From IMG/VR virus record IMGVR_UViG_3300032242_001604, positions 1-22,042 of that record: DNA of 22,042 nucleotides; one strand, written 5' to 3'. Below the pieces are notes generated by a model. The model was not told the DNA's origin, did not search any database, and saw nothing but the letters and a program-made list of their open reading frames with translations. This DNA is from a virus. Made by a program: the position numbers and the translations under genes. This document shows positions 1,697-22,042 of this stretch, piece after piece; position 1 is the stretch's first letter, and every line of letters begins with the position of its first letter.

Positions 1697-2589
1697 TTAA
1701 GGAAGCTTTCTAATTTTTTTAATGTTGCTTTTTTGGTTGCAATCTTGTTATTCAACGCCACGGCTTGTTCTGCTGCCAATAGCTGCATGCGTTCCTCACT
1801 CATGTTTTCAATCTCATGCAATGTGTAAGCATAAGATGAATCTATAACACCTAGCTCTTTCACATCACCGCCAAGAATACAACCTGCATGTGCAGCATGT
1901 AAATACCTAACACGCCACCAACCGCAACCTGCATGCGTGTAGGTTGGGCATAGTACGCCTTTGTATTCACCGTATTGCCAAACAACATCACTTTCAAGTA
2001 TACGTGGCTGCCCCAAGGCTTTACCACCTACACTAAAGACGGGCCATGATAGGTTTTGCATAGTCGCCCATTCATGTGCATCTTTTGAAAGTGATGCGTT
2101 GTACCACTCAATTTTACGCTTAGGCCAAGCCATTTGATGGCAAGCCGGTTGCATATACAAAGATGATGGGTCCCATGCCAAGATAGTCTCTACATCAAGG
2201 CCCATCTTCTTTGTATCACCCCATGGAAAAAGTGGAGCAATCCACTTATGCTCACGCAGGTCGCTTGCAGGAATCATGTCTGCCCATGAATCAAAGATTT
2301 TTTGGAATGACCAGTCATCCAAGCAAATGTAAGCATCCATGCATTCCTGCAAAACACGCTTAGCACCTGCGGGATGAACCGCATTCTTATCCAGTGGGTA
2401 GACATAAAGAAAAACTTTGTCATACCGAGCCAAGTTGGTATCCTCATGTACTGCCATGTGATCTACCTCATGCCCCTGACTAAGATACGCATCACGCATC
2501 AACTCGGGCACCGATACAAACTTGGTTGAGCTTGCACGATTAGGATGATTAGTATGCGTCTCAGTCACACCGGTAATAAGAATCTTCAT
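1693..2589 (-). CDS. Putative GT-B-like glycosyltransferase (DNA modification candidate)
   Basis: The 298-aa protein opens with MKILITGV followed by a GHEVDH turn, the pattern of a Rossmann-type GT-B N-domain. Its C-terminal part has RYLHAAHAGCILGGD (about 228-242), SYAYTLHEIENMSEERMQ and a Lys-rich helical tail. This resembles the donor-binding end of GT-B enzymes, where an R..EA...GC block precedes a short helix and an I..M..ER..L helix; here the usual Glu is Ala or His. No signal peptide or membrane segment is seen. GGAG lies 8 bases before the ATG, and the start overlaps the upstream stop (ATGA). It is co-directional and overlapping with the kinase and hydroxymethylase-like genes, so a role in adding sugar to hydroxymethylated bases fits. 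A different sugar-transfer role, or a non-catalytic GT-B fold, remains possible. Confidence 0.5.
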   Translation of the reverse strand: MKILITGVTETHTNHPNRASSTKFVSVPELMRDAYLSQGHEVDHMAVHEDTNLARYDKVFLYVYPLDKNAVHPAGAKRVLQECMDAYICLDDWSFQKIFDSWADMIPASDLREHKWIAPLFPWGDTKKMGLDVETILAWDPSSLYMQPACHQMAWPKRKIEWYNASLSKDAHEWATMQNLSWPVFSVGGKALGQPRILESDVVWQYGEYKGVLCPTYTHAGCGWWRVRYLHAAHAGCILGGDVKELGVIDSSYAYTLHEIENMSEERMQLLAAEQAVALNNKIATKKATLKKLESFLK

Positions 2590-2807
2590 GCAGGCAACTC
2601 CAATGCAATGTAGCCTTCAGTTGCATCATGATTCACGTCGCCTGTACGCCCGCCAGCTGCAAGATAATCCGCAACGGTCATGCCATCATGATATAACGCA
2701 TAACGCTCGGCCGCCAATGTGCCTGCACGCTTTGGATTGTCAGCCATTAAAAGTTTAATGATGGCCTTTTTGCTTGCACGACGACGAATTTTGACTATCT
2801 CAGTCAT
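2586..2807 (-). CDS. Small conserved phage protein, function unknown
   Basis: A 73-residue protein with a basic N-terminus (KIRRRASKKA) followed by NPKRAGTLAAERYALY, a DGMTVADYLAAGG segment and GYIAL near the end. The NPKR...R..LY.DGMTVA.YL.AG pattern is one I associate with short proteins of many phages; no function is known to me. The start at 2807 is chosen over a longer reading from 2855 because TAGGAGAAAG lies just upstream, with AGGAG 7 bases from ATG, and because the longer form would run into the helicase stop. Its 44-bp upstream gap carries a 15-base motif that recurs in the divergent control region. Its stop overlaps the glycosyltransferase start, so it opens the modification operon and could be transcribed with it. 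Confidence 0.75.
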   Translation of the reverse strand: MTEIVKIRRRASKKAIIKLLMADNPKRAGTLAAERYALYHDGMTVADYLAAGGRTGDVNHDATEGYIALELPA

Positions 2808-2851
2808 AGACTTTCTCCTAGAGTAAATGTAAAAACTTGCATGTATACTTT

Positions 2852-4237
2852 TCAAATATCAACGGGAACCATTTTATCACGTTTCACGTAGTCACGTACG
2901 GCATCTAACAGTTTTTGTTGAGTCTTGTCTTTGCGCTTTACCGCAGATAAGATGGCTTCATCAACTGTATCACGTGCAATGATGTGATGAACTACAATGT
3001 GATTCTTTTGACCTTGACGCCAGAGTCGACGAATAAACTGCTCATAAGTTTCAAGGGACCATGTTAAAGAATACCAGATGACAGCATGGCCCGAACCTTG
3101 TAAATTAAGGCCGTGGCCCGCTGACATGGGATGTGCAAGCAATACCGGTATTTCTCCGGCATTCCAAGACTTAATAATCTTATCAAGCTTAGTGCCAATA
3201 ACCCCAGAACCGATAATAGGAGCATGAGGAAAGACCTGCTTAAGCCTTGCAAGGTCATGCGCAAAGTGATAACCGATAATGCAAGGCTGGCCTGATAGCT
3301 CCTCGACCAGTTCGAGTGCTGCGTCTGTTTTTGCGTCATGGATGTGTAATATCTCTCGTTCATCGCCGTCTAAATACGATCCACCATTCGCAATTTGTTG
3401 GCCTTTCATGACAGCGACTGCAGCATTGACAGCTGTAACATTGCCTGCATCCAACTCAATCGTGAGGTTGTCTTCAAACGACTTGTACATTTTCTTTGCA
3501 GCAGGGGGTAGATCTATATAGATATTGTTATAAGTTAGCTCGGGTAAATCTAGATGGTCCAGCGCTGCCATACGCAGCACTTTGTCTTTCAACTTTTCAT
3601 GGATTCTTACTTCACCATCGGGCTGAATCTTCCATTCATAACCGCCATAACCCGATGGGTAAAAGTATTCTTGTCTGAAACGTGTAATGAAGGGTCCAAA
3701 CGTAGCACCTTGGTCAATGATGTACTGTGGGCCAAAGATGTCAAGCAGACTATTTGGAGCGGGTGAGCCGGTTAGACCCCAACGGCGATCAAACTTGTTA
3801 AGCACAGGCTTTAGGCATTTAAAGCGTTGTGTCCCGGGATTCTTCATGTAGCTAATCTCATCGATTGTCAAGATGTCAAAAGGCCAGACTTTGCCATTAA
3901 GATGCGATGACAGCCATTGAAGGCCTTCATAGTTAATTACATAAATGTCATGGTTCTGTTTGAGTACTTTAGCTTTTGCACCACCATGTAAGACACCTAC
4001 AGAGTAATCAGCAAATTGATCCCATTTTTTAACCTCAACAGGCCATACGCCATGTGCCGGTCTTAAAGGCGCAAGAACCAACATTTTCTTGACCATACCT
4101 TTAAGTCGTAAAGTGCGATAGGCAGACAACACGATGGCTGTCTTACCTAACCCTGGGTCAAGCCATAAAGCACCTGAGCCATGCGTGACAAGAAACTTTA
4201 CAGCTTCTTTTTGATACTCATGAGGTTCCCAAAACAT
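2852..4237 (-). CDS. SNF2-type superfamily 2 helicase/ATPase
   Basis: The 461-aa protein has the ordered motifs of the SNF2 group of SF2 enzymes: a Q-type YQKEAV (8-13), Walker A DPGLGKT (27-33), Walker B ILTIDEIS with D126-E127, motif III GLTGSPAPN, and motif VI EQFIRRLWRQGQK in the second RecA-like domain. It should use ATP to move along or remodel double-stranded DNA, in replication, repair or recombination. At this length it is a minimal two-domain form without accessory domains. The start at 4237 (MFWEPHEYQ) is preferred over 4267 because the helicase homology begins there and it leaves a short 20-bp overlap with the VRR-NUC gene. A weak GAAAG lies upstream. The adjacent nuclease genes suggest joint action. 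Confidence 0.92.
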   Translation of the reverse strand: MFWEPHEYQKEAVKFLVTHGSGALWLDPGLGKTAIVLSAYRTLRLKGMVKKMLVLAPLRPAHGVWPVEVKKWDQFADYSVGVLHGGAKAKVLKQNHDIYVINYEGLQWLSSHLNGKVWPFDILTIDEISYMKNPGTQRFKCLKPVLNKFDRRWGLTGSPAPNSLLDIFGPQYIIDQGATFGPFITRFRQEYFYPSGYGGYEWKIQPDGEVRIHEKLKDKVLRMAALDHLDLPELTYNNIYIDLPPAAKKMYKSFEDNLTIELDAGNVTAVNAAVAVMKGQQIANGGSYLDGDEREILHIHDAKTDAALELVEELSGQPCIIGYHFAHDLARLKQVFPHAPIIGSGVIGTKLDKIIKSWNAGEIPVLLAHPMSAGHGLNLQGSGHAVIWYSLTWSLETYEQFIRRLWRQGQKNHIVVHHIIARDTVDEAILSAVKRKDKTQQKLLDAVRDYVKRDKMVPVDI

Positions 4238-4505
4238 AATCAATACTTTCTTTAGAATCAACAACAAACACGTGATGCTTTAATAGCCTTAAGTCGTGAT
4301 GTACTTTATCTTGTAACGCAGAAGTTTTCCCGCCCGGACGTTTTAGCTCAACCCAGATGATTTTCCCATTAGGTAAAGCCACAATCCGATCAGGCCAACC
4401 TCGAGCAAACCTAATGTGCAATTTCAAAGTCAAAAGCTTATGCTTCTTACATTGCGCTGAGAAGTACCTTTCAAGGTCGCGTTCAAGAATAACTTTGGTC
4501 ACCAT
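4218..4505 (-). CDS. VRR-NUC domain nuclease
   Basis: The 95-aa protein is a stand-alone VRR-NUC domain of the PD-(D/E)XK fold. Visible are RGWPDRIV (D39), IWVELKRPGG with E53-x-K55, and the helix SALQDKVHHDLRLL that follows the active site in this family. Phage members are known to cut branched DNA or nick duplexes and often sit beside a helicase. Start choice: ATG at 4505 has GGAGG 9 bases upstream and overlaps the end of the RecB-like gene by 7 bp; an in-frame start further up at 4550 has no support. The 3' end overlaps the SNF2 helicase start by 20 bp, so the two are probably translated together and may work as a pair at forks or recombination intermediates. Confidence 0.9.
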   Translation of the reverse strand: MVTKVILERDLERYFSAQCKKHKLLTLKLHIRFARGWPDRIVALPNGKIIWVELKRPGGKTSALQDKVHHDLRLLKHHVFVVDSKESIDYVLGTS

Positions 4506-5134
4506 TGGCAAGGCCCTCCATTGCTTTTGCGGAAATGGCACCAACGACAATTGTTTGTTGGCTTAGGCGCAAAGATGTCGTCATTTTCAATCTTTGTAAT
4601 GCGATCGGTAATCCATTGCTTTAATGCATCAAGATCAGAACGTTTATGCGTTGTGTATGACACACGCTTTTTAAGATCAATATAGCAAACCTCGGTGTCT
4701 ACTTCTTCAACCTGAGGGTTGGTTGCCAAGATGACTGCGGCATAGAGCTTTAATTGGTCTTCATAGTCCCTTTCTTTGCCTGTCTTCCAGTCAAGGACGT
4801 GTGCACGAGGGGGCATAAAATACGTAGCATCATAGATACCCCTTAGCCAATAATTAGGGTCCTTAAAGTCACAGGGCTGCCAATCTTTGGTGATGGCAAA
4901 CGCAACTTCACTTTGAGCGCCAAGCAAAATCAATTCATTAATGTATTCATACCAGTAACTGAAGTCTGGACTAAGCAAAGGCATATTTGTCAAAGCCTGC
5001 TCAAACTCGTAATGAATGTCTTTGCCTCGTTGTGCTGCGTCGCCTGTAGGCTCTTGACGATGCTCAAGACGAGTAAGCTTATATTTATACGGGCATTGCT
5101 CGTATGACTTAATGCTTGAGTTACTGAACCCCAT
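4499..5134 (-). CDS. RecB/Cas4-like PD-(D/E)XK exonuclease with probable Fe-S cluster
   Basis: The 211-aa protein matches the RecB-type nuclease domain (PDDEXK_1 / Cas4 group). H41 lies in GKDIHYEFE, D102 in RGIYDA, D115-x-K117 in VLDWKTGK, and the Q127/Y131 motif in DQLKLYA. Four Cys are placed as in AddB/Cas4 Fe-S nucleases: C14 in SYEQCPYKYK, then C196, C199 and C209 at the C-terminus. An iron-sulfur cluster clasping the two ends is therefore likely. The expected activity is exonuclease or endonuclease on DNA ends in recombination or repair. The start at 5134 has GGGA just upstream; extra residues in the longer frame (to 5203) look unrelated to the domain. It follows the 62-aa gene with a 14-bp overlap and precedes VRR-NUC. 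Confidence 0.9.
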   Translation of the reverse strand: MGFSNSSIKSYEQCPYKYKLTRLEHRQEPTGDAAQRGKDIHYEFEQALTNMPLLSPDFSYWYEYINELILLGAQSEVAFAITKDWQPCDFKDPNYWLRGIYDATYFMPPRAHVLDWKTGKERDYEDQLKLYAAVILATNPQVEEVDTEVCYIDLKKRVSYTTHKRSDLDALKQWITDRITKIENDDIFAPKPTNNCRWCHFRKSNGGPCQW

Positions 5135-8466: not shown

Positions 8467-8657
8467 GTGTTTTCCAATGGTGGTGTGCAAGTGTGAATTG
8501 CCCCATCGAAAAGGTGCTTGCCACAACGTTGACAGAAGTTCAGCTCAGCTTCCAACTTAGACAGTCTGTCACCTAATTCGCGTATTAGCATCCTAGCCAC
8601 AGCCAATTCTTCAGCCATTTGAAGATACTTAGTTGATGCCATAGAATCATTTGACAT
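8463..8657 (-). CDS. Coiled-coil protein with C-terminal zinc-ribbon-like motif
   Basis: A 64-residue protein. The first 42 residues form a heptad-like amphipathic helix (MAEELAVARMLIRELGDRLSKLEAEL), followed by FCQRCGKHLFDGAIHTC, a C-x2-C plus H-x-C set that could bind one zinc ion. It could be a small dimeric DNA- or protein-binding adaptor, but no function is known. ATG at 8657 has GGAGG 5 bases upstream and overlaps the previous stop (TAATG); the GTG start at 8669 is unnecessary. Confidence 0.72.
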   Translation of the reverse strand: MSNDSMASTKYLQMAEELAVARMLIRELGDRLSKLEAELNFCQRCGKHLFDGAIHTCTPPLENT

Positions 8658-8761
8658 TATGGCCTCCACATAGTTATGTCTAAAGCAATTACCAACATAG
8701 CAATAGCTAATACTGCGTATAACAGTTTGTTGAACATAGAGATGTTTTTTGCGTCAATCAT
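8657..8761 (-). CDS. 34-aa single-pass membrane peptide
   Basis: A very short gene: a polar start (MIDAKNISMFNK) followed by one hydrophobic helix (LLYAVLAIAMLVIALDI) and a short tail ending in WRP. AAAGGA lies 6 bases before the ATG at 8761, one base after the stop of the preceding small gene, and its own stop overlaps the next start (TAATG). The tight fit on both sides supports it as real. A longer reading in the same frame to 8878 crosses the preceding gene and has no ribosome site. Small phage membrane peptides can affect host envelope functions, but nothing specific is visible. Confidence 0.6.
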   Translation of the reverse strand: MIDAKNISMFNKLLYAVLAIAMLVIALDITMWRP

Positions 8762-8762
8762 G

Positions 8763-8927
8763 TTAATCCTTTGAAATTGGAATGCAAATGTATTTGTCAC
8801 TTGCATGTTTGTGTTCTTGTTTTGTAATGCTGCGTATGCATGCACTACGCGTTTCATAAGGCATAGCATACTGCGCAATACATGCAGGATTGCAAAGCAT
8901 ATATACCAATGCCCATGCAGAAGTCAT
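8763..8927 (-). CDS. 54-aa small Cys-rich, possibly exported protein
   Basis: Translation from ATG at 8927 gives 54 residues: a hydrophobic start (MTSAWALVYMLCNPACIA), then a polar region with further Cys, ending in KYICIPISKD. The layout (short hydrophobic N-terminus, scattered Cys, terminal Y.C.P) recalls small exported phage proteins; a cleaved signal peptide is possible but short. The start overlaps the upstream stop (ATGA), with GAGG 8 bases upstream, and the stop lies one base before the next ATG. These junctions are the main support. Confidence 0.6.
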   Translation of the reverse strand: MTSAWALVYMLCNPACIAQYAMPYETRSACIRSITKQEHKHASDKYICIPISKD

Positions 8928-9151
8928 ACACTTGCCTCTTCAGTAAAAGCCTTGGCCACATACGCATTTAAGCGTTTAATGCGATCAGAGTGATAATCAA
9001 CCATGCGCTTGGAATAGTCCAACGCAGTTTGCATATGCAACAACTGCCGCTTGGCTTCCTCCAACTCAATGAGAGCCAGCTCATCAGCCAATGGCGTTCT
9101 AAACGCCGTAGACATAAACTTTTTAAATTTGTAAAAGTATTGCTGCATCAT
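8924..9151 (-). CDS. Conserved small phage coiled-coil protein
   Basis: A 75-residue, mostly helical protein: ELALIELEEAKRQLLHMQTALDYSKRMVDYHSDRIKRLNAYV. The pattern LELEEAKR.LL..Q.A.DY.......Y...RI.RL is widespread among short phage proteins with no known activity. The sequence predicts one long amphipathic helix or helical hairpin. The start overlaps the upstream stop at 9148-9150; two adjacent ATGs (9151, 9148) are possible and differ by one residue. Confidence 0.72.
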   Translation of the reverse strand: MMQQYFYKFKKFMSTAFRTPLADELALIELEEAKRQLLHMQTALDYSKRMVDYHSDRIKRLNAYVAKAFTEEASV

Positions 9152-9387
9152 AATATTTCTACGCCTTTCAATGCGCGGGTAATGCTGTCAAATCTAAGTT
9201 CAAGATTTGGGTTATGTTTAGTAAGCTCAACACCGGTAGGTGTTGCCTTATATGTTCCAATAAAGTCTTTGTCTGCTATCTTTATAGTGACTCTACCCGA
9301 TGCAATGGGATAGCCTGCTAATAGTAGCTGCACTTCATTCTGAGTAATAAAGACTTTTGTTTCTTCTTTGTGTAAATCCACATGCAT
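9148..9387 (-). CDS. Hypothetical beta-rich small protein
   Basis: A 79-residue protein with alternating hydrophobic and charged residues (KVFITQNEVQLLLAG, GRVTIKIADKDFIGTYKA) suggesting a small beta fold, then a polar C-terminus. I do not recognise it. The ATG at 9387 is chosen over a TTG at 9402 because AAAGG sits 7 bases upstream and the latter would lie in the leader motif. It is the first gene after the terminator at 9408-9438, so it begins a new unit whose leader carries TTGATTATTGAAAGG. Confidence 0.72.
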   Translation of the reverse strand: MHVDLHKEETKVFITQNEVQLLLAGYPIASGRVTIKIADKDFIGTYKATPTGVELTKHNPNLELRFDSITRALKGVEIL

Positions 9388-9394
9388 ATATGTT

Positions 9395-9409
9395 CCTTTC
9401 AATAATCAA
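9395..9409 (-). promoter_or_regulatory. Leader motif TTGATTATTGAAAGG, copy 1
   Basis: The 15-base motif ends in the Shine-Dalgarno AAAGG and stands 7 bases before the ATG at 9387, right after a terminator T-tract. The same motif occurs at 12140, 12420 and 13433. It could be a promoter element, a translation enhancer or an RNA-processing signal. Confidence 0.6.
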
Positions 9410-9438
9410 AAGAGAGAGAGGGGCACGCAAGGCCCCTC
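9408..9438 (-). terminator. Rho-independent terminator after the 248-aa protein gene
   Basis: On the minus strand a perfect 7-bp stem GAGGGGC/GCCCCTC with a 7-base loop is followed by a pyrimidine run ending in TTTT. It starts 7 bases after the stop of the gene at 9445-10191. The T-tract is interrupted by C, so termination may be partial. Confidence 0.75.
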
Positions 9439-9444
9439 ATGTAA

Positions 9445-10191
9445 TTAGTACTTGGCTTTAGCGTCCACAGCCGGGGCGCCTTCCTCAATTACTTCATTTA
9501 CAGCACCGGCAGTGTCAATTGCCTTCTGCACTTCTTTGTCAGCACGTGCCATCAATGCCTGAATGATTGCCATATCCTCAATAGCTTTGACAACCGTGAA
9601 GGTTACCTTGAATTGCGTCTTAGGGTCTGGTACAACAGCAATCTCAGTAATGACTGCCAAAGGCGGACGCTTCATTGTTGTGGCGACAGTCTGCACATAT
9701 GTTGCATAGTTCTTCAAACTGGTAACAGGTGGGCGCAACGCTGCAATCTCTGCAGACTCAACCGCGGCAACCGTGCCAATGCTATCAGCAGGGATAAGCA
9801 AAAGGCGACGAGTCTCACGGCAGGCTTTACCCTTACCACCATTAACAGCAGAGCCCCACTCATTCTTAGGGCAGCTTTCACATGTTGCATGCGCAGGCTC
9901 CTCAACATTAGGCGCAGGGCCCATGCCAGTTGCGATTGCAGCAATGGCAAAACACTTTGGGCCAATGATCTTGGTAGGGTCATACCTTGCGTCATAATAA
10001 AGGCGCTCAACAGGGGCTGAGAGGATCACGCATGCCAACTTGTTGTCAGTGATTGCGTTGCCACGATACTTAAGCGTACCGCCTTGTGTTGAAAGGAATG
10101 TTGCCGTCAGGCCAGATTGCTCTGCCTTAACAGTTTCCATAGCCATTTTGGCCAATTGATCTTCAAAAAGCGCGATTTGATTCTTTGACAT
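9445..10191 (-). CDS. Conserved phage protein with Cys cluster, possible nucleic-acid binding
   Basis: A 248-aa protein of uncertain function. The core (about 30-200) looks beta-rich. A likely metal site consists of C80, C104 and C107 (ATCESCPKNEWGS), then C124 in a Gly/Lys-rich stretch GGKGKACRETRRLL. The tail is acidic and low in complexity (EVIEEGAPAVDAKAKY), similar to the acidic tails of single-stranded DNA-binding proteins. No SSB is otherwise visible in this replication arm, so an SSB-like role is an open possibility, not a recognition. A strong AGGAG precedes the ATG at 10191 and a terminator follows the stop, so it should be well expressed and end its unit. Confidence 0.8.
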   Translation of the reverse strand: MSKNQIALFEDQLAKMAMETVKAEQSGLTATFLSTQGGTLKYRGNAITDNKLACVILSAPVERLYYDARYDPTKIIGPKCFAIAAIATGMGPAPNVEEPAHATCESCPKNEWGSAVNGGKGKACRETRRLLLIPADSIGTVAAVESAEIAALRPPVTSLKNYATYVQTVATTMKRPPLAVITEIAVVPDPKTQFKVTFTVVKAIEDMAIIQALMARADKEVQKAIDTAGAVNEVIEEGAPAVDAKAKY

Positions 10192-10209
10192 AAAAACTCC
10201 TAGAACTAG

Positions 10210-10575
10210 TTACTTGCGATAAACGGTAAGTTCCCAAACAGCCGATGTGGATGTTCCGGGTATGGCCTCACCAGCATCCCACCGCTCACGGAATGCTGTT
10301 GAGGAAAGCCGCTTGTGCAGCAATTCGAATTGACCAGTCTCTGCGACATAGTCATAAAATACTTTCCAATCATCAATGGCAGGATGAGTTGTTTGCTTCA
10401 TGCTGCATGTAGCTTTATCGTTGCCTGCTTTGCTAATGCCAGCCTCACTCATCAATGACATAATGTCGTTTTCCAATGCAGTCAATTTACTGGTACATTG
10501 CTTAACCTCATTGCTAAGGGCTTCCCTTTTGGCTTTGACTTCGACGAATTGGTCGATAAGATCATTGATATTCAT
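10210..10575 (-). CDS. Conserved phage protein with N-terminal coiled coil
   Basis: A 121-residue protein. Residues 1-45 form a coiled coil (DQFVEVKAKREALSNEVKQC), then SEAGISKAG, a short beta part, and a C-terminal block with DDWKVFYDYVAETGQFELLHKR, ERWDAGEAIPGT and ELTVYRK. The pattern DW..FY.YI.ET..F.LL..R.S....ER...G..IPG is a widespread phage family with no assigned activity; DNA-end or nucleoid binding, as in Gam-like coiled-coil proteins, is only a guess. The start at 10575 overlaps the upstream stop (ATGA); ATG at 10581 is also possible. Confidence 0.75.
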   Translation of the reverse strand: MNINDLIDQFVEVKAKREALSNEVKQCTSKLTALENDIMSLMSEAGISKAGNDKATCSMKQTTHPAIDDWKVFYDYVAETGQFELLHKRLSSTAFRERWDAGEAIPGTSTSAVWELTVYRK

Positions 10576-10763
10576 TTGCATCTTTCTTTTAACATTGCAT
10601 TAGCCATATCATACGCAACTTTTGCGTACTTTTCGTATGAAGCCTTTTCGACAAACTCAGGATTGCTAAGGAGTCCGATCAGAGCTTGCCCAGCAAAGTA
10701 ATCTTGCATGTCCATGCCCATACGACCGCTACCTGTTGGGAATGCTGGTGGGTTATCAATCAT
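10572..10763 (-). CDS. Small conserved phage protein (PAFP...DYFAGQAL)
   Basis: A 63-residue protein beginning MIDNPPAFPTGS, followed by GMDMQDYFAGQALIGLL and a helix AKVAYDMANAMLKER. The PAFP....GM...DYFA.QAL...A..AY..A.AML..R pattern is very common in small proteins of proteobacterial phages; the role is unknown. It overlaps the MazG gene by 8 bp and the coiled-coil gene by 4 bp. Confidence 0.75.
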   Translation of the reverse strand: MIDNPPAFPTGSGRMGMDMQDYFAGQALIGLLSNPEFVEKASYEKYAKVAYDMANAMLKERCK

Positions 10764-11172
10764 TGTTTTTTTCCTTGTGCTGCGCAGTTTGAATAAGCGC
10801 CAACATCATTGGCTCGGGGGGAGTCCAGCCTGAGGGCTTGACAACGTCGTATTGACTACCGCGCAATGAGCGCATGTGCTGATTGGCTGGAACTTTCTGC
10901 ATATTGGATTTATGCACCACAGCAAAAAGATCGTCAAAGGGAAGGCCCATGGCATGGGCACAGCCTAATGTGACGTACACCAAGTCAATCAAGGCATCAG
11001 CCGCGTCAACCAAGCTCCCCTCTTCATTAGCCCTAAGGTACTCACTAAGCTCTTCCATGATGAAGCGAGCAAAGTAACTGGTCTCGGCCGCTGATAGCAA
11101 ATGCGGATCAGTTGATATAGGCAACTGCATCTTGGTGCGGAACTCGCCTACGAGTTGAAAGTTAGTCTGCAT
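10756..11172 (-). CDS. MazG-like all-alpha NTP pyrophosphohydrolase
   Basis: The 138-aa protein has the metal-binding motif of the MazG/dimeric dUTPase superfamily: EELSE (40-44) followed by DAADALIDLVYV (56-67, D59 and D63), and KSNMQK further on, which is typical of phage HisE/MazG-like proteins. Such enzymes split NTPs or dNTPs into the monophosphate and PPi. Target candidates are dCTP, dUTP or an alarmone; the sequence does not decide. T4 gp56, a dCTPase/dUTPase needed for hydroxymethylcytosine DNA, has the same activity, so a dCTPase role would fit the modification genes here. The start at 11172 has CGAGG 6 bases upstream; about 36 extra codons to 11280 overlap the upstream gene and look non-homologous. 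Confidence 0.85.
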   Translation of the reverse strand: MQTNFQLVGEFRTKMQLPISTDPHLLSAAETSYFARFIMEELSEYLRANEEGSLVDAADALIDLVYVTLGCAHAMGLPFDDLFAVVHKSNMQKVPANQHMRSLRGSQYDVVKPSGWTPPEPMMLALIQTAQHKEKNND

Positions 11173-11425
11173 AGTAAACCTCGAGGATACGTTGGTTGTG
11201 ACGATGCTCAATAGGAACGCGCTTGGTGATGTACTCACGGTCAACTTTGGAAAGACGATCTGTGCAATCAACGTCACCAACCATAAAGCTAAACCAGAAG
11301 CCTTCGCTTACCATGTCAGCATCATTGCATTCTTCATAGGTAACATGCACATTGCAATCGCCAGTCTCAGGCATGTCATCCATGTCAAAGGGAACGTATT
11401 CAAATGTAAATTCATATTCATTCAT
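11162..11425 (-). CDS. Acidic hypothetical protein
   Basis: An 87-residue, strongly acidic protein (FEYVPFDMDDMPETGD, YEECNDADMV) with a more basic C-terminal part (KRVPIEHRHNQRILEVYY). It looks like a small alpha/beta domain; I do not recognise it. Highly acidic small phage proteins sometimes mimic DNA, but the basic end argues against a simple mimic. It has ATGA and 11-bp overlaps with its neighbours. Confidence 0.7.
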   Translation of the reverse strand: MNEYEFTFEYVPFDMDDMPETGDCNVHVTYEECNDADMVSEGFWFSFMVGDVDCTDRLSKVDREYITKRVPIEHRHNQRILEVYYAD

Positions 11426-13774: not shown

Positions 13775-13811
13775 AAAAAATGAGGCCCCGACACGTGAAT
13801 GTCAGGGCCTA
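13775..13811 (-). terminator. Leftward-facing hairpin with T6, no leftward gene upstream
   Basis: On the minus strand AGGCCC-T-GACA, a 6-base loop and TGTC-G-GGGCCT form a 10-bp stem with one mismatch, followed by CA and TTTTTT. The tail matches that of the 12433 terminator (CATTTTTTG). On the plus strand there is no T-tract, so it should stop only leftward transcripts; it may also act as a leader hairpin for the rightward gene. Confidence 0.65.
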
Positions 13812-16171: not shown

Positions 16172-16639
16172 ATGACTACTAAGACACCATCTAAGAACGG
16201 AAAGTTCTTGGGACGTCCTTCAAAGTACGACCCTGCACTTTGTGATCAAGTCGTTGAGCTTGGCCGGCTCGGCTTATCCCGTTATCAAATCTGTTCACGT
16301 CTTAATATTGGTTGGCGTAATCTTCAAAACTGGGAAGGTGCGCATGACGATTTTCGGGCGGCATTGGAAGAATCACGAATCCATGCGCTCAATCATTGGG
16401 AACAATTGGCCCAGACTTACCTGATTGAAACGCCGGGTAGCGCAAAGCTAAACACAGGGCTCTGGTCGCGATCAATGTCTGCACGCTTTCCGCGTGAGTA
16501 TCGCGAAAATACTAAGCATGAGATTGTTGGCAAAGACGATGGCGCAGTTCAAGTTGACGTTGTGCATGACTTCTCACAAGCTTTGCTTAATGATTTGCTA
16601 AGTCTAAGACAAGACGATGCTGAGTCCGGTACTAATTGA
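16172..16639 (+). CDS. terS: Terminase small subunit
   Basis: The 155-aa protein reads GRPSKYDPALCDQVVELGRLGLSRYQICSRLNI followed by NLQNWEGAHDDFRAALEESR. This is the helix-turn-helix and following helix seen in phage small terminases (GRP.KYD...C..V..LG..G.S..Q...L.I). A middle part (YLIETPGSAKLNTGLWSRSMSARFPREY) is also typical, and the tail is acidic. The protein binds the packaging site on concatemeric DNA and hands it to the large subunit. It overlaps terL by 23 bp. AAGGA lies 13 bases upstream of the ATG, which is longer than ideal. Confidence 0.88.
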   Translation: MTTKTPSKNGKFLGRPSKYDPALCDQVVELGRLGLSRYQICSRLNIGWRNLQNWEGAHDDFRAALEESRIHALNHWEQLAQTYLIETPGSAKLNTGLWSRSMSARFPREYRENTKHEIVGKDDGAVQVDVVHDFSQALLNDLLSLRQDDAESGTN

Positions 16640-18044
16640 TCAGTTTGAGCAACGCCTTCGGGGCTCACTTAAGTTAGACGCACTTACGCCTGAGCAAAAG
16701 GCTGCAACGCAGGCAAGACTTAAGTGGTTGATGGCGGCAAGCAAGCATCAGGTCCCTCCTTCAGGCGATTGGTGGGTGATCTGGCTTCTGTTAGCGGGGC
16801 GTGGCGCAGGCAAGACTCGTTGCGCTGCTGAGTGGACTTGGTGGGCAGCATGGACTCAGCCTAACACACGATGGCTCGTATCAGCGCCTACAAGCTCCGA
16901 TGTCCGCGACGTTTGCTTTGAAGGCGAGTCAGGCTTAATGAACGTGATTCCCGATATCTTAGTTGGTGACTACATCAAGAGTTTGCATGAGATCAAACTT
17001 AAGAATGGGTCGATCATTAAAGGGATTCCGGCGTCTGAGCCTAATCGATTCCGCGGACCTCAGTTTCATGGCGGTTGGCTTGATGAGTTGGCTGCTTGGG
17101 AATACTTGGACGAATCATGGGACATGCTTAACTTTGGATTGCGTTTAGGTAAACATCCTAAGCTGATATGTACCACAACGCCTAAGCCAAAGCCCTTGAT
17201 AGTGGATCTGGTTAACCGCGACGGCAAAGATGTGGTGTACACCATGGCCAGTACGTATGACAACATCCACAACCTCGCTCCAACTTTCAAGAATCAGATC
17301 CTCCAGTATGAGGGAACTAAGCTTGGTAGACAAGAGATTCATGCGGAGATCTTAGATCCTGAAGAATCCGGTGTCATCAAGCGTGATTGGTTCAAGCTTT
17401 GGCCTAACGATAAGCCGCTGCCACGCTTTCAGTATGTCGTACAGAGTTACGACTGTGCCACGTCTGACAAAACTAAGAACGATCCAACAGCCTGCTCGGT
17501 GTGGGGCATCTTCAAACCTAGTGATGATAAGCCTATGAGCGTGATGCTCATTGATTGCTGGGAAGAGTATATGCAATACCCAGACTTGAGACCTAAGGTC
17601 GTGGATGAGTATGCTGCGATCTATGGTGATGAGAATGAGTTTGGGCATGGAAAGAAAGTCGATCTCATCGTGATTGAGGACAAGTCCGCAGGCATCTCAC
17701 TCATACAAGACTTGCAACGTGCAGGCCTACCGGTTCGTGGCTATAACCCGGGCAATGCAGACAAGATGACACGGCTTAACATTATTGCGCCCATCATTCA
17801 ACGTGGCCGAGTCTACATTCCCGAGTCTGTTGTCAAACCCGGCATGGCTCGTGACTGGGCTGAGGCATTGATAAGTCAATTATGCGCCTTCCCGGAAGTT
17901 AGACATGACGACTTGGTCGACACGACGTCACAGGCATTAAGAGTTTTGCGAGACATGGGCCTCATTAACATAGATCCGGTGTATGATCCAGGCGAAGTCT
18001 ACCCAGAGGATAGACCAAGAAGGGTGAACCCATATGCCGTATGA
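16617..18044 (+). CDS. terL: Terminase large subunit (packaging ATPase and nuclease)
   Basis: The 475-aa motor protein has Walker A LLAGRGAGKT (61-67), a Walker B block HGGWLDELAAWE (D156, E157) and a coupling motif TTTP (186-189). The C-terminal RNase H-like nuclease has D279 in QSYDCATS, E354 in LIVIEDKSAG and D431/D432 in RHDDLVD. It pumps DNA into the prohead through the portal and cuts concatemers. Length and motif order are those of a complete enzyme. The start at 16617 lies in the end of terS and the stop overlaps the next gene by 11 bp, so the three genes are coupled. A portal gene does not follow directly. Confidence 0.96.
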   Translation: MLSPVLIDQFEQRLRGSLKLDALTPEQKAATQARLKWLMAASKHQVPPSGDWWVIWLLLAGRGAGKTRCAAEWTWWAAWTQPNTRWLVSAPTSSDVRDVCFEGESGLMNVIPDILVGDYIKSLHEIKLKNGSIIKGIPASEPNRFRGPQFHGGWLDELAAWEYLDESWDMLNFGLRLGKHPKLICTTTPKPKPLIVDLVNRDGKDVVYTMASTYDNIHNLAPTFKNQILQYEGTKLGRQEIHAEILDPEESGVIKRDWFKLWPNDKPLPRFQYVVQSYDCATSDKTKNDPTACSVWGIFKPSDDKPMSVMLIDCWEEYMQYPDLRPKVVDEYAAIYGDENEFGHGKKVDLIVIEDKSAGISLIQDLQRAGLPVRGYNPGNADKMTRLNIIAPIIQRGRVYIPESVVKPGMARDWAEALISQLCAFPEVRHDDLVDTTSQALRVLRDMGLINIDPVYDPGEVYPEDRPRRVNPYAV

Positions 18045-19077
18045 TGATGTCGCACCTACAGACATAGCTAGAATGCAAGCTATGTTGCGTATGCAACAAG
18101 CTGAGCCTACATATGATGATGGCGAGTATTTGCTAGGCGCTGATTCCGGTATGCAGCAAGTTGGCTTATTTGGTAAAGGCAGACCTAAGCCTGTTGCGCC
18201 TGTTGACCTTGCTCGTCGTTCCATGTTTGGCTTATCGCCTCAAGCCCCGCTGCCTGACAACTTACCTGCAGTACGCTCATCTGATGTGCCTGTGCCAAAT
18301 GCAGTGCCTTCGCCTTTTATGCCTGTGCAACCAACGCCTGCGCCGCAAGCGCCTGCTGCACCGCTTGAGTCATTAATTAGCAAAGCTGCCAATACACCGG
18401 TATCAAGGCGTGAAGTGTTAAAGAAGGCAGGCCAAGTTGCGCTGAATCAAGCATTGCCTACGCCTAAAGTTACTGATGTCGTACCTGAGATTGTATCGCC
18501 ATTGGCACAAGCTGCTAATATTGCACAACCTGGCTTTATTCCGAATGACATCATTGATACACATTTGCGTAATTATGTACAAGGCATGGCAGCTAATGCA
18601 TATGAACAAGAACCTGGCGCGGTTGCGCAAGGCTTATGGATTATTTCTAGAGATTATTTAAAAAATCAGTTGCCTAAAGAAACAGTACAAGAACTGGATG
18701 CATTGGCGCATCTAACAAAACAAGGTAAACTCCACAAAAATAGCCCTGAACTTTCAGACGAAGCATCACATGAGTTGTTTGTACGAATGCAAAACAATAT
18801 GCGTAAGTTAAAGCCTCATGAACTAGCGGACGTATTAAGTAATTTGCATCAAGAAGACTACCCTAATGCTGAAATATATGAGAATATCGCAGAGCATTTC
18901 TCAAATGCCTTACCTGAAGACGCACGTATTAAACAAATGAATAAGCAACTTGGGCTTAAACCTAAAAATGCAAAAGTAGAAAAGTCATTTGAGAGTTTAA
19001 TTGACCCTCATGAGTTTGACCGCTACATTGAGCAATCATGGGAGCATTCAAAAGTCAAAAAGGAACCTACGAAATGA
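18034..19077 (+). CDS. Pro-rich protein of unknown function between terL and a giant gene
   Basis: A 347-aa protein that I do not recognise. Residues 1-60 are polar. Residues 65-112 are rich in Pro and Ala (PVQPTPAPQAPAAP), a flexible linker. Residues 124-133 read SRREVLKKAG, like a twin-Arg motif but internal and without a following hydrophobic stretch. The last 180 residues are helical and charged. It overlaps terL by 11 bp and the giant gene by 4 bp (ATGA), and both it and its larger neighbour have disordered Pro/Ala-rich N-terminal parts. Its position suggests a virion or packaged protein; it is not a typical portal. AAGGG lies upstream of the ATG. Confidence 0.72.
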   Translation: MPYDDVAPTDIARMQAMLRMQQAEPTYDDGEYLLGADSGMQQVGLFGKGRPKPVAPVDLARRSMFGLSPQAPLPDNLPAVRSSDVPVPNAVPSPFMPVQPTPAPQAPAAPLESLISKAANTPVSRREVLKKAGQVALNQALPTPKVTDVVPEIVSPLAQAANIAQPGFIPNDIIDTHLRNYVQGMAANAYEQEPGAVAQGLWIISRDYLKNQLPKETVQELDALAHLTKQGKLHKNSPELSDEASHELFVRMQNNMRKLKPHELADVLSNLHQEDYPNAEIYENIAEHFSNALPEDARIKQMNKQLGLKPKNAKVEKSFESLIDPHEFDRYIEQSWEHSKVKKEPTK

Positions 19078-22042
19078 CGCCTATCACAGACGCACTAGGT
19101 AACATAATTGGCTATGAAGATGATGCGGCCCCCGCACCGGTTGCCGCGACCGTAAGTCCTCTTGACACTGTCAAGGACGAGCTTAAGAAAATAGCTGCGC
19201 ACTCTCACCCAATGCTTGCACCGTTGTACTTACGCGATATGTCGCGCATAGGTACAAACATGTTAAGTCCGTTTGTAGGCGCCGGTGTTGGTGTATTAGG
19301 CAACATACAAGCAAGGGGCGCAGAACAACTACACAGAGCTGTAGGTGATGAGGCTTCGGCATTGGAAGCTGCTAACAGAGTCGTAAGGCCTGATGCGCCA
19401 GAACAAGCAGCACGCTTTCAAGCAGACTTGCAAACACCATTGATGCGACAAGCACAAGAGGGTTTAGGCAAGACGTTTGATGCTTTACATTTACCTGCAG
19501 GCGGCCCAGGGTCTGGAATGCCAGGGTCAATGCCTATCTCACCTCGCCCATTGATTACACCACATGATGTCAGGGTGTTAGGTGCCGAGGCTACAAGGGT
19601 TGGCCGTCAAGTCCGTGATATACCTACCGACTTTCAGAATGCGCAGTCAGGCGTAACCCGTCTTGATACGGTGACCAATCAACCAACGATGGGCGCAAAG
19701 CTGCAAGGCCTTGCTGAAGATGTAGGTCGCATTACCGAGCAACGTAGAGCGCAAGGCTTAAGTACTTTGCCTGGTGTCCCTGAGGCGCTTACACCTGAGA
19801 CTAACATGTATGCTATGCGGCCACAAGGCACGCGGTTGACAATGCCTGTTGTGCCTGAGTCTACCAATGTTAGGCCTTTATTTAACCATATACCTGCACT
19901 TGTACGTGATGTGATGGGCACACGTGAAGGGCCATTGTCGCCTGAGAATGTAATGTATGAAGTGCGCAATTCACATGTTGGTGAGACAACTACTGAGCCA
20001 CATTTACGTTTAGAGCTTAAACAAGAATTAAGAAACTTTACAGATCAAAAAATTAAAGACTTATACCCTGATGCGCCTACATTTTCAGATGCTAAAGATG
20101 CATTTAACGTTCTTTTTAGCGACCCTCAAGCTCGCGCTGCGTATGACATGAAAATATATGACGAGTTTCTTAACACAACGGAAGGCCAACGTCTTAAAGG
20201 CGCGTTGAAGTTGCCTTCAACAGGTGAGGTGGAAGCTCGGCATGACGCGGCAGCTTCTTGGATCAAAGGTCAATTTACAAACTACCTAACAAAAAATCTA
20301 GGCGCCGAAGGTGACCCTTTGGTTAAGCTTGCTTCACAGGGTATGACGTATTTGCCGGCTGAGACTATATTTGAAAATGCTAGTTCTGCAGTTAGCAATG
20401 CAGGATTGCGTAATAAACGTGAGCAAGCAGGCATGCCAGGTGAGTCTGCACTTGAAGATGTTGAGCAAGCTAAATTCCAAGAACTACAAACCGCAAACCA
20501 AGAGTTGCGTACAGCTGAGGGTGAGCGTACGCGTTTGGCAGAAGTTGCAAGATCACAAGGCTTATTGGGCCCTGAAGATTTGCCTGAGTACGCGGCAACA
20601 ACAAACCCAATTCGAGCATTGGCGCGTAAACGCGATAAGTTGCAAAAAGAGTTTGATAACTTACGATTGGGCGTTGAGTATGAAAAGCTATCTGACCTTG
20701 GCATATCTGCTAAGTCTAAAAAAGACATTAATAGACAATTGCCTTACAGTGAAAGGCAGTTCTTTCCATCAGTAGAAAAGACGCCTGACTCTGAAAAGAT
20801 TTATACAACATCAGGTGGTAATGTATTGGATATGCTAGGCTTTGAGAATATTGCAAAAGACTTTTATAAAGATGTCATGTCAGGTAAGATTCCTTTAGAT
20901 AAAGTTGCAAAGACACCGGTTGATGCGTATGTGCGCAAAGCTGCTGAAGCTCGTGCTGTTAAGGAGAAAGCCGAGAAAGCTGAAATAGCTGCATATGTTG
21001 ATAAAGCGCAAACCAACATGCTTAAGACTTTAGAAGCAATGGTGCCTAATGACAAAGTGTTTGGCAATGTTGGAGCATTAGAAGTTACTAATGCATTACC
21101 TATACAAGAGATTGTGCGCTTGGTTAGTGATGACACTGCTGTCTTGGATCATTGCATTGCAGAGGGTTGTACCGCCGCTGAAGGTACACGCAATCCATGG
21201 GCGCCTACGTATGCCAAGCGTAGGTATGAGCCTATTTATGATCCTGCAACAGGGCGTCTTAATCCTAAAGCAACACGTGACACAACTAGTTATGCTCGTG
21301 CCGCAGCTAGTGGTGATCAATTGATTAGCATGCGCAACATGGAAAATGGATTGCCTGTTGCTACATTCCAATTCCATTTAGAGTCAAGTCCTACTGGGCA
21401 GCCGCAATACACAATTGGGTTTGCATCAGGCTTTAAGAATGGCCCAGTTAAGCCTGAGTACGTTGAGGACATTAAAGCTTATTTGAATAGCCGTGCGGAT
21501 GACATTAAGAATCCCGGCAGTGACTTGCGGGATAACTTAGGCTTGTATGACACCAAGTCAAGTAATGGTATGAATCATTTACGTTTGGACGCAAATACAG
21601 GCATGCTGGCAGCTGAGCTTAGTAGCATTGACTTTAGCGGCCTGCCTCGCTTTGTTACTACTAAAGACTTTAAAGACTACATTGCGAATGGCGCACCTGC
21701 AGCATCGTCCTCTGTAGCATTGCAAAATGCTAATGCTGACAGACTTGAGACTATTAAAAGCACGCTTATGGATAACGCTGAAAGCGTTGTAGGGGATGCT
21801 GTACGAAACTCAAGTTTACAAGACACTGATGAGCTTGAAAGAAGACTAGGCGGCGTCTTTACTGTAGTCAATAGAGATTACTTTCCTACATTTACGGATG
21901 ACCCATTGCCTACATTGAATCGAATAATTGATTTCATTGGCAATGAAATGGACCGTCGTGTTAATAACGCTTCAGACCTCTCTCAAGAAATGGTTGCCGC
22001 ATTAGGTGAGTATGCTGCAGAGCTTGAATATGCACGTGACGA
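19074..22042 (+). CDS. Giant multidomain protein with PcfJ-like domain, probable large polyvalent protein (3' end outside window)
   Basis: Translation from ATG at 19074 stays open for 989 codons to the window edge. Much of it is helical, Ala/Gln-rich and charged, with Pro/Gly-rich links near residues 145-160. At about 685-815 there is a recognisable block: LDHCIAEGC (H693, C694), then SGDQLISMRNMENGLPVATFQF, then YTIGFASGFKNGPVKPEYVEDIKAYLNS. This corresponds to the DHCVGGY..SLRD..G.P..TIE..Q.KG..N..P...Y....FL order of PcfJ-like domains in phage large polyvalent proteins, several of which are thought to be packaged and injected. The remaining domains are unassigned. The start overlaps the previous stop (ATGA). 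It could alternatively be an internal virion protein without enzyme activity. Confidence 0.82.
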   Translation, partial: MTPITDALGNIIGYEDDAAPAPVAATVSPLDTVKDELKKIAAHSHPMLAPLYLRDMSRIGTNMLSPFVGAGVGVLGNIQARGAEQLHRAVGDEASALEAANRVVRPDAPEQAARFQADLQTPLMRQAQEGLGKTFDALHLPAGGPGSGMPGSMPISPRPLITPHDVRVLGAEATRVGRQVRDIPTDFQNAQSGVTRLDTVTNQPTMGAKLQGLAEDVGRITEQRRAQGLSTLPGVPEALTPETNMYAMRPQGTRLTMPVVPESTNVRPLFNHIPALVRDVMGTREGPLSPENVMYEVRNSHVGETTTEPHLRLELKQELRNFTDQKIKDLYPDAPTFSDAKDAFNVLFSDPQARAAYDMKIYDEFLNTTEGQRLKGALKLPSTGEVEARHDAAASWIKGQFTNYLTKNLGAEGDPLVKLASQGMTYLPAETIFENASSAVSNAGLRNKREQAGMPGESALEDVEQAKFQELQTANQELRTAEGERTRLAEVARSQGLLGPEDLPEYAATTNPIRALARKRDKLQKEFDNLRLGVEYEKLSDLGISAKSKKDINRQLPYSERQFFPSVEKTPDSEKIYTTSGGNVLDMLGFENIAKDFYKDVMSGKIPLDKVAKTPVDAYVRKAAEARAVKEKAEKAEIAAYVDKAQTNMLKTLEAMVPNDKVFGNVGALEVTNALPIQEIVRLVSDDTAVLDHCIAEGCTAAEGTRNPWAPTYAKRRYEPIYDPATGRLNPKATRDTTSYARAAASGDQLISMRNMENGLPVATFQFHLESSPTGQPQYTIGFASGFKNGPVKPEYVEDIKAYLNSRADDIKNPGSDLRDNLGLYDTKSSNGMNHLRLDANTGMLAAELSSIDFSGLPRFVTTKDFKDYIANGAPAASSSVALQNANADRLETIKSTLMDNAESVVGDAVRNSSLQDTDELERRLGGVFTVVNRDYFPTFTDDPLPTLNRIIDFIGNEMDRRVNNASDLSQEMVAALGEYAAELEYARD

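Follow-up and report, generated by a model that had tools for sequence, protein, structure and literature searches.

The window analyzed here is the whole 22,042-base IMG/VR record IMGVR_UViG_3300032242_001604. Its last gene lies between the terminase large subunit gene (terL) and the portal gene, an interval referred to below as the slot. Sequence comparisons indicate that the product of this gene is a diverged member of a widespread, unstudied phage family, to which it is linked by a helical platform. On balance, we favor the view that this tailed phage encodes, in a conserved terL-portal slot, a large accessory protein of the polyvalent type whose PcfJ core has a GNAT-like predicted fold; the protein would be produced late, packed into the head and injected, and would act on the host.

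Position and extent of the slot gene

The early genes of the window are mostly located on the minus strand. A minus-strand ORF at 761–1696 has a nucleotide kinase-like beginning (GPDGAGKTT) and a distinct C-terminal half. The plus-strand block runs from a primase-like gene at 13799 through the terminase small subunit gene (16172–16639; phrog_309, E 3.1e-15), terL (16617–18044; Pfam Terminase_6N, E 7.5e-26, and Terminase_6C, E 5.8e-10) and a Pro-rich ORF of 347 aa (18034–19077) to a large ORF that stays open to the window end (19074–22042).

The Pro-rich ORF (10.4% Pro overall, 15.3% in the first 150 residues) is accessory and absent from the close relatives L002 and L003. A weak counterpart was found at the matching position in L049 (phmmer E 0.023 against our own ORF set). 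The two Pro-rich ORFs, at 18034–19077 in the window and at L049:3436–4332, have in common the motif [ST]RRE[VM]LK[KR]AG, which is twin-arginine-like but internal in both.

The best start of the large ORF is the ATG at 19074, which forms an ATGA overlap with the stop of the Pro-rich ORF and is preceded by AAGGA; the slot genes of L002 and L003 start at the homologous point. From this ATG 989 codons are open in the window, and the gene is truncated only because the record stops there. The first 123 bases of locus L004 are identical to the end of the window (123/123 nt), and the locus completes the gene, with a stop at L004:2275 and a product of about 1706 aa. In L004 it is followed by the portal gene (2277–4808; phrog_1216, E 2.9e-16), a Cpn10/GroES-like gene and the major capsid gene. 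A chance ORF is ruled out by the about 1706 open codons and by conservation in L002 and L003. No long direct DNA repeats were found within the slot gene.

Thus the large ORF that the initial annotation had noticed after terL and the Pro-rich ORF is real, and the full gene, whose recovery had been proposed there, is now available. The large polyvalent-type gene had also been placed near the usual position of the portal gene, which holds for the terL-portal interval. The idea that it takes the place of the portal does not hold: the large ORF of the window has no portal profile match and the portal is the next gene in L004, therefore the portal is not displaced and the large gene lies between terL and portal.

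Structure of the window protein

The window protein gave no Pfam, no NCBIfam and no significant PHROG matches. Its N-terminal region (residues 1–386; 19074–20231, plus strand) contains no recognised domain by Pfam or NCBIfam. Residues 387–644 (20232–21005; WIKGQFTNYLTKNLGAEGDPLVKLA...) correspond to the helical platform of the PcfJ core. An HMM of this platform, built from 20 PcfJ slot proteins with the window protein left out, matched these residues with an i-E of 6.4e-15, while the best of 1000 shuffles had an E of 0.83. The platform is predicted to be helical, with pLDDT mostly 64–94, and co-linear BLASTP matches to PcfJ slot proteins cover residues 379–699. The core region is 91–95% conserved between the window protein and L002/L003; hhalign of the window family against relatives of phage DSL-LC04 recovers only a 32-column WIK...DP..KLA block. 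Since the platform matches the conserved PcfJ core, residues 387–644 are not a separate effector, contrary to the suggestion that the stretch before residue 680 might hold further ones.

The platform is followed by a linker (21006–21317) with an insert of about 45 residues and a low-confidence fold (pLDDT below 50 over most of model residues 254–355); it carries H693-C694 (21150–21155). Next come the PcfJ-like strands LISMRN, PVATFQFHLE and QYTIGFAS and the helix PEYVEDIKAYLNS (residues 749–806; 21318–21491), an assignment supported by predicted element order and Foldseek. The residues that had been singled out as PcfJ-like, H693-C694, S752-M753-R754-N755 and F787-K-N-G-P791, are all present at these positions. 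The canonical motifs EGxxMxHCVGGY and SLRxxxGxPxxTxE are incomplete in the window: HC, SMR and GLPVAT are kept, and EG, GGY and the Glu are gone. The Pfam PcfJ family (PF14284) did not reach its cut-off on the window protein. A broad PcfJ-block HMM ranked the window block 16th among about 5000 shuffles, and a strict one scored it at shuffle level. In a tblastn search of the block against phages only Riemerella MuF-type proteins were recovered, at E 3–5, which we took as chance. The block has thus diverged too far to be recognised by Pfam or by sequence statistics, and by sequence alone its assignment is not beyond doubt; it is supported by the upstream platform domain, by synteny and by the predicted fold. 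The variable C-terminal region starts at 21492–22042 and differs between window/L004 and L002; tblastn of its L004-derived part against phages gave no match.

Two structure predictions, whose alignments were largely shared, were compared, one for the window core (pLDDT 69) and one for the canonical core of L046 (pLDDT 83). Both contain strand, strand, strand and helix at SLR/SMR, TIE/TFQ, QIYG/GFAS and the next helix, respectively. As regards the PcfJ-like block of the initial annotation, the predicted order of elements therefore agrees with canonical PcfJ, while the sequence is strongly diverged and several invariant residues are missing.

In Foldseek searches against the PDB the first match of the canonical model was the ESCO1 acetyltransferase (prob 0.97), and the window model also matched GNATs (RimI-type, prob 0.96), with weak E-values for both models. 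With VIA, all 50 of the matches listed for the canonical model were GNATs, with Z below 8 and HAT1 as the best (Z 7.8, rmsd 3.0, 105 aligned); the matches listed for the window model were helical, mostly coiled-coil. Comparison of 34 PcfJ blocks with 20 bacterial GNATs by hhalign revealed no similarity (prob 0.1, E 0.56), and when 29 PcfJ blocks were scanned against Pfam at E 10, no acetyltransferase family was among the matches listed. Proteins of the GNAT superfamily carry (Q/R)xxGx(G/A) at the junction of strand 4 and helix 3. Canonical PcfJ has Q-x-[KY]-G at its strand-helix junction and so retains QxxG, and the window has F783-A-S-G-F-K788 at this site and lacks the full motif. Because the scores are modest, the window VIA list is helical and the profile comparison is negative, we put forward the resemblance of the alpha/beta block of the PcfJ core to GNAT acyltransferases as a hypothesis from the predicted fold. 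Since the window block is devoid of the CoA-loop Gln and of other invariant residues, it may be inactive, altered or a binding module.

Slot proteins of other phages

A PcfJ peptide-pattern scan of viral contigs, blind to gene context, revealed 56 loci. The portal gene was located at most 300 bp downstream of the PcfJ gene in 50 of 54 evaluable loci and terL at most 600 bp upstream in 34 of 41, although these are not independent events because the 56 loci include near-duplicates. The slot protein is thus encoded with the phage portal and terminase late genes. Slot proteins vary in size from 661 to 1987 aa. Canonical PcfJ was present in 10/10 aligned relatives, and several relatives exceed the Pfam cut-off for PF14284, as does DSL-LC04, whose slot contains a PcfJ-like protein (E 5e-9). 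The slot of MW202545 contains a GP88-domain protein (GP88 over its cut-off), and Caulobacter phage GB2A has no such gene between terL and portal. Six loci in bacterial contigs were found with an HC-type core scan. PcfJ relatives L082–L087 lie on contigs of Burkholderiales, Chromatiales, Komagataeibacter, Thiotrichaceae and Leucothrix, which hints at hosts. In L039 a second large ORF (8529–11408; 959 aa) without Pfam matches is located between the PcfJ slot protein and the portal.

Slot proteins are composed of a PcfJ core and exchangeable modules, i.e., they have the architecture of polyvalent proteins. A clear module is the SLT transglycosylase domain of L077 (E 2.5e-12), which accompanies a weak PcfJ match. 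In L046 the PcfJ domain (E 3e-8) is flanked by ART-PolyVal (E 1.5e-6; 29.4 bits, below the 31.2-bit cut-off) and GP88 (E 4e-5, just below its cut-off). The slot proteins of L013/L015 contain a 260-residue insert with HEFEH, a putative HExxH block read by eye. In L016–L019 the common leader is attached to a different PcfJ body, so that one leader occurs with two different bodies, and the PcfJ core is present twice in each of L033 and L038. Hence the polyvalent type proposed for the window gene is borne out at the family level, since its PcfJ slot relatives swap modules.

A peptide motif, [FYM][AKS]xGG(x)(V/I/L), recurs in L004, L005, L006, most slot proteins and other proteins of the virion module, and sometimes precedes a stretch like PSIxxMxxAL. 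In two complete genomes it was counted 10 times in the virion module of DSL-LC04 (0.9 expected) and 9 times in that of MW202545 (0.8 expected), with none in other genes, although these counts are not a blind test because the pattern was first derived from these sequences. The motif may act as a tag for packaging or mark a site of cleavage.

Possible role and comparison with known systems

Slot proteins would be made late in infection, packed into the phage head and ejected into the host along with the DNA, and their enzymatic modules would modify host molecules early in infection. The helical platform and the small alpha/beta block form the constant part, around which family members gain and lose modules; in the window phage this block may have lost or changed its activity or serve for binding. 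For the window protein itself we infer virion packaging and entry with the DNA. A more specific version, which we hold only tentatively, is that PcfJ, a domain common in phages and plasmids, is a GNAT-fold acyltransferase effector to which a phage clade dedicates its terL-portal slot and which is delivered with the genome, the window variant being devoid of the CoA-loop Gln.

Ejection proteins have a size range similar to that of slot proteins. This likeness, together with the late-gene position, the tight coupling to the portal and the long helical platform, would suit a structural protein of the head or of ejection (an internal scaffold, a portal-associated or a DNA-ejection protein) in which the platform is the functional portion and the domains joined to it are incidental. 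We consider this unlikely, however, as the slot of GB2A is without such a gene, another protein of DSL-LC04 is annotated as a DNA transfer protein, and slot proteins exchange bodies and carry SLT, sub-cutoff ART and GP88 modules.

The open reading frame of about 1706 codons and the conservation of the core in L002 and L003 argue against a decaying or inactive remnant carried with other modules. Such an origin of the window PcfJ block seems quite unlikely to us, even though EG of EGxxMxHC, the T-x-E glutamate and the CoA-loop Gln are lost, a 45-residue insert is present and the block score is near chance. PcfJ (PF14284) takes its name from a transfer gene of a conjugative plasmid. This origin, and the fact that polyvalent proteins are found in phages as well as in conjugative elements (PMC5512222), might point to a conjugation-related accessory that processes DNA, the target of the PcfJ core at entry being phage or host DNA and not proteins; we regard this as very improbable, as the Foldseek and VIA matches to the PcfJ block include no prominent nuclease, relaxase or DNA-binding fold.

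If slot proteins are indeed injected effectors with a GNAT-like PcfJ core, PcfJ gains an immediately testable biochemical hypothesis, in which it would bind acyl-CoA and acetylate host proteins or tRNA, and the terL-portal interval becomes a site where injected effectors of environmental phages can be sought from synteny alone.

Polyvalent proteins are large, composed of multiple modules and encoded near portal and terminase genes (Iyer et al., 2017, PMC5512222), and the window protein shares with them its size of about 1706 aa and this neighbourhood. GNATs and ARTs are already given there as modules; PcfJ does not occur in the main text, and we found in that paper no description of a constant PcfJ core in a fixed slot between terL and portal. 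A described function of PcfJ was not found in the literature, where the term mostly refers to pCFJ plasmids of C. elegans. GNATs (HAT1, ESCO1, RimI and the TacT/AtaT toxins) resemble PcfJ in its predicted strand-helix core, and canonical PcfJ also has their QxxG where strand 4 meets helix 3, but the window copy is without the Gln and profile similarity is absent.

The slot protein of MW202545 (UOF78459) resembles that of the window in position and in its GG-type peptide motifs, and the TerL proteins are 64% identical; it differs in having a GP88 module, with no PcfJ match in the record. The PcfJ-like protein of DSL-LC04 (OR003939, WJZ48068) and its IMG/VR relatives share with the window protein the terL-portal position, the platform and the large size, and DSL-LC04 has a GroES gene downstream of the portal, as in L004. 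Unlike the window protein, that of DSL-LC04 is shorter (825 aa) and has an intact canonical PcfJ motif; the two are about 25% identical, mainly within the platform. Two features appear to be new, a PcfJ core that stays constant at a fixed slot and the possible GNAT fold of this core.
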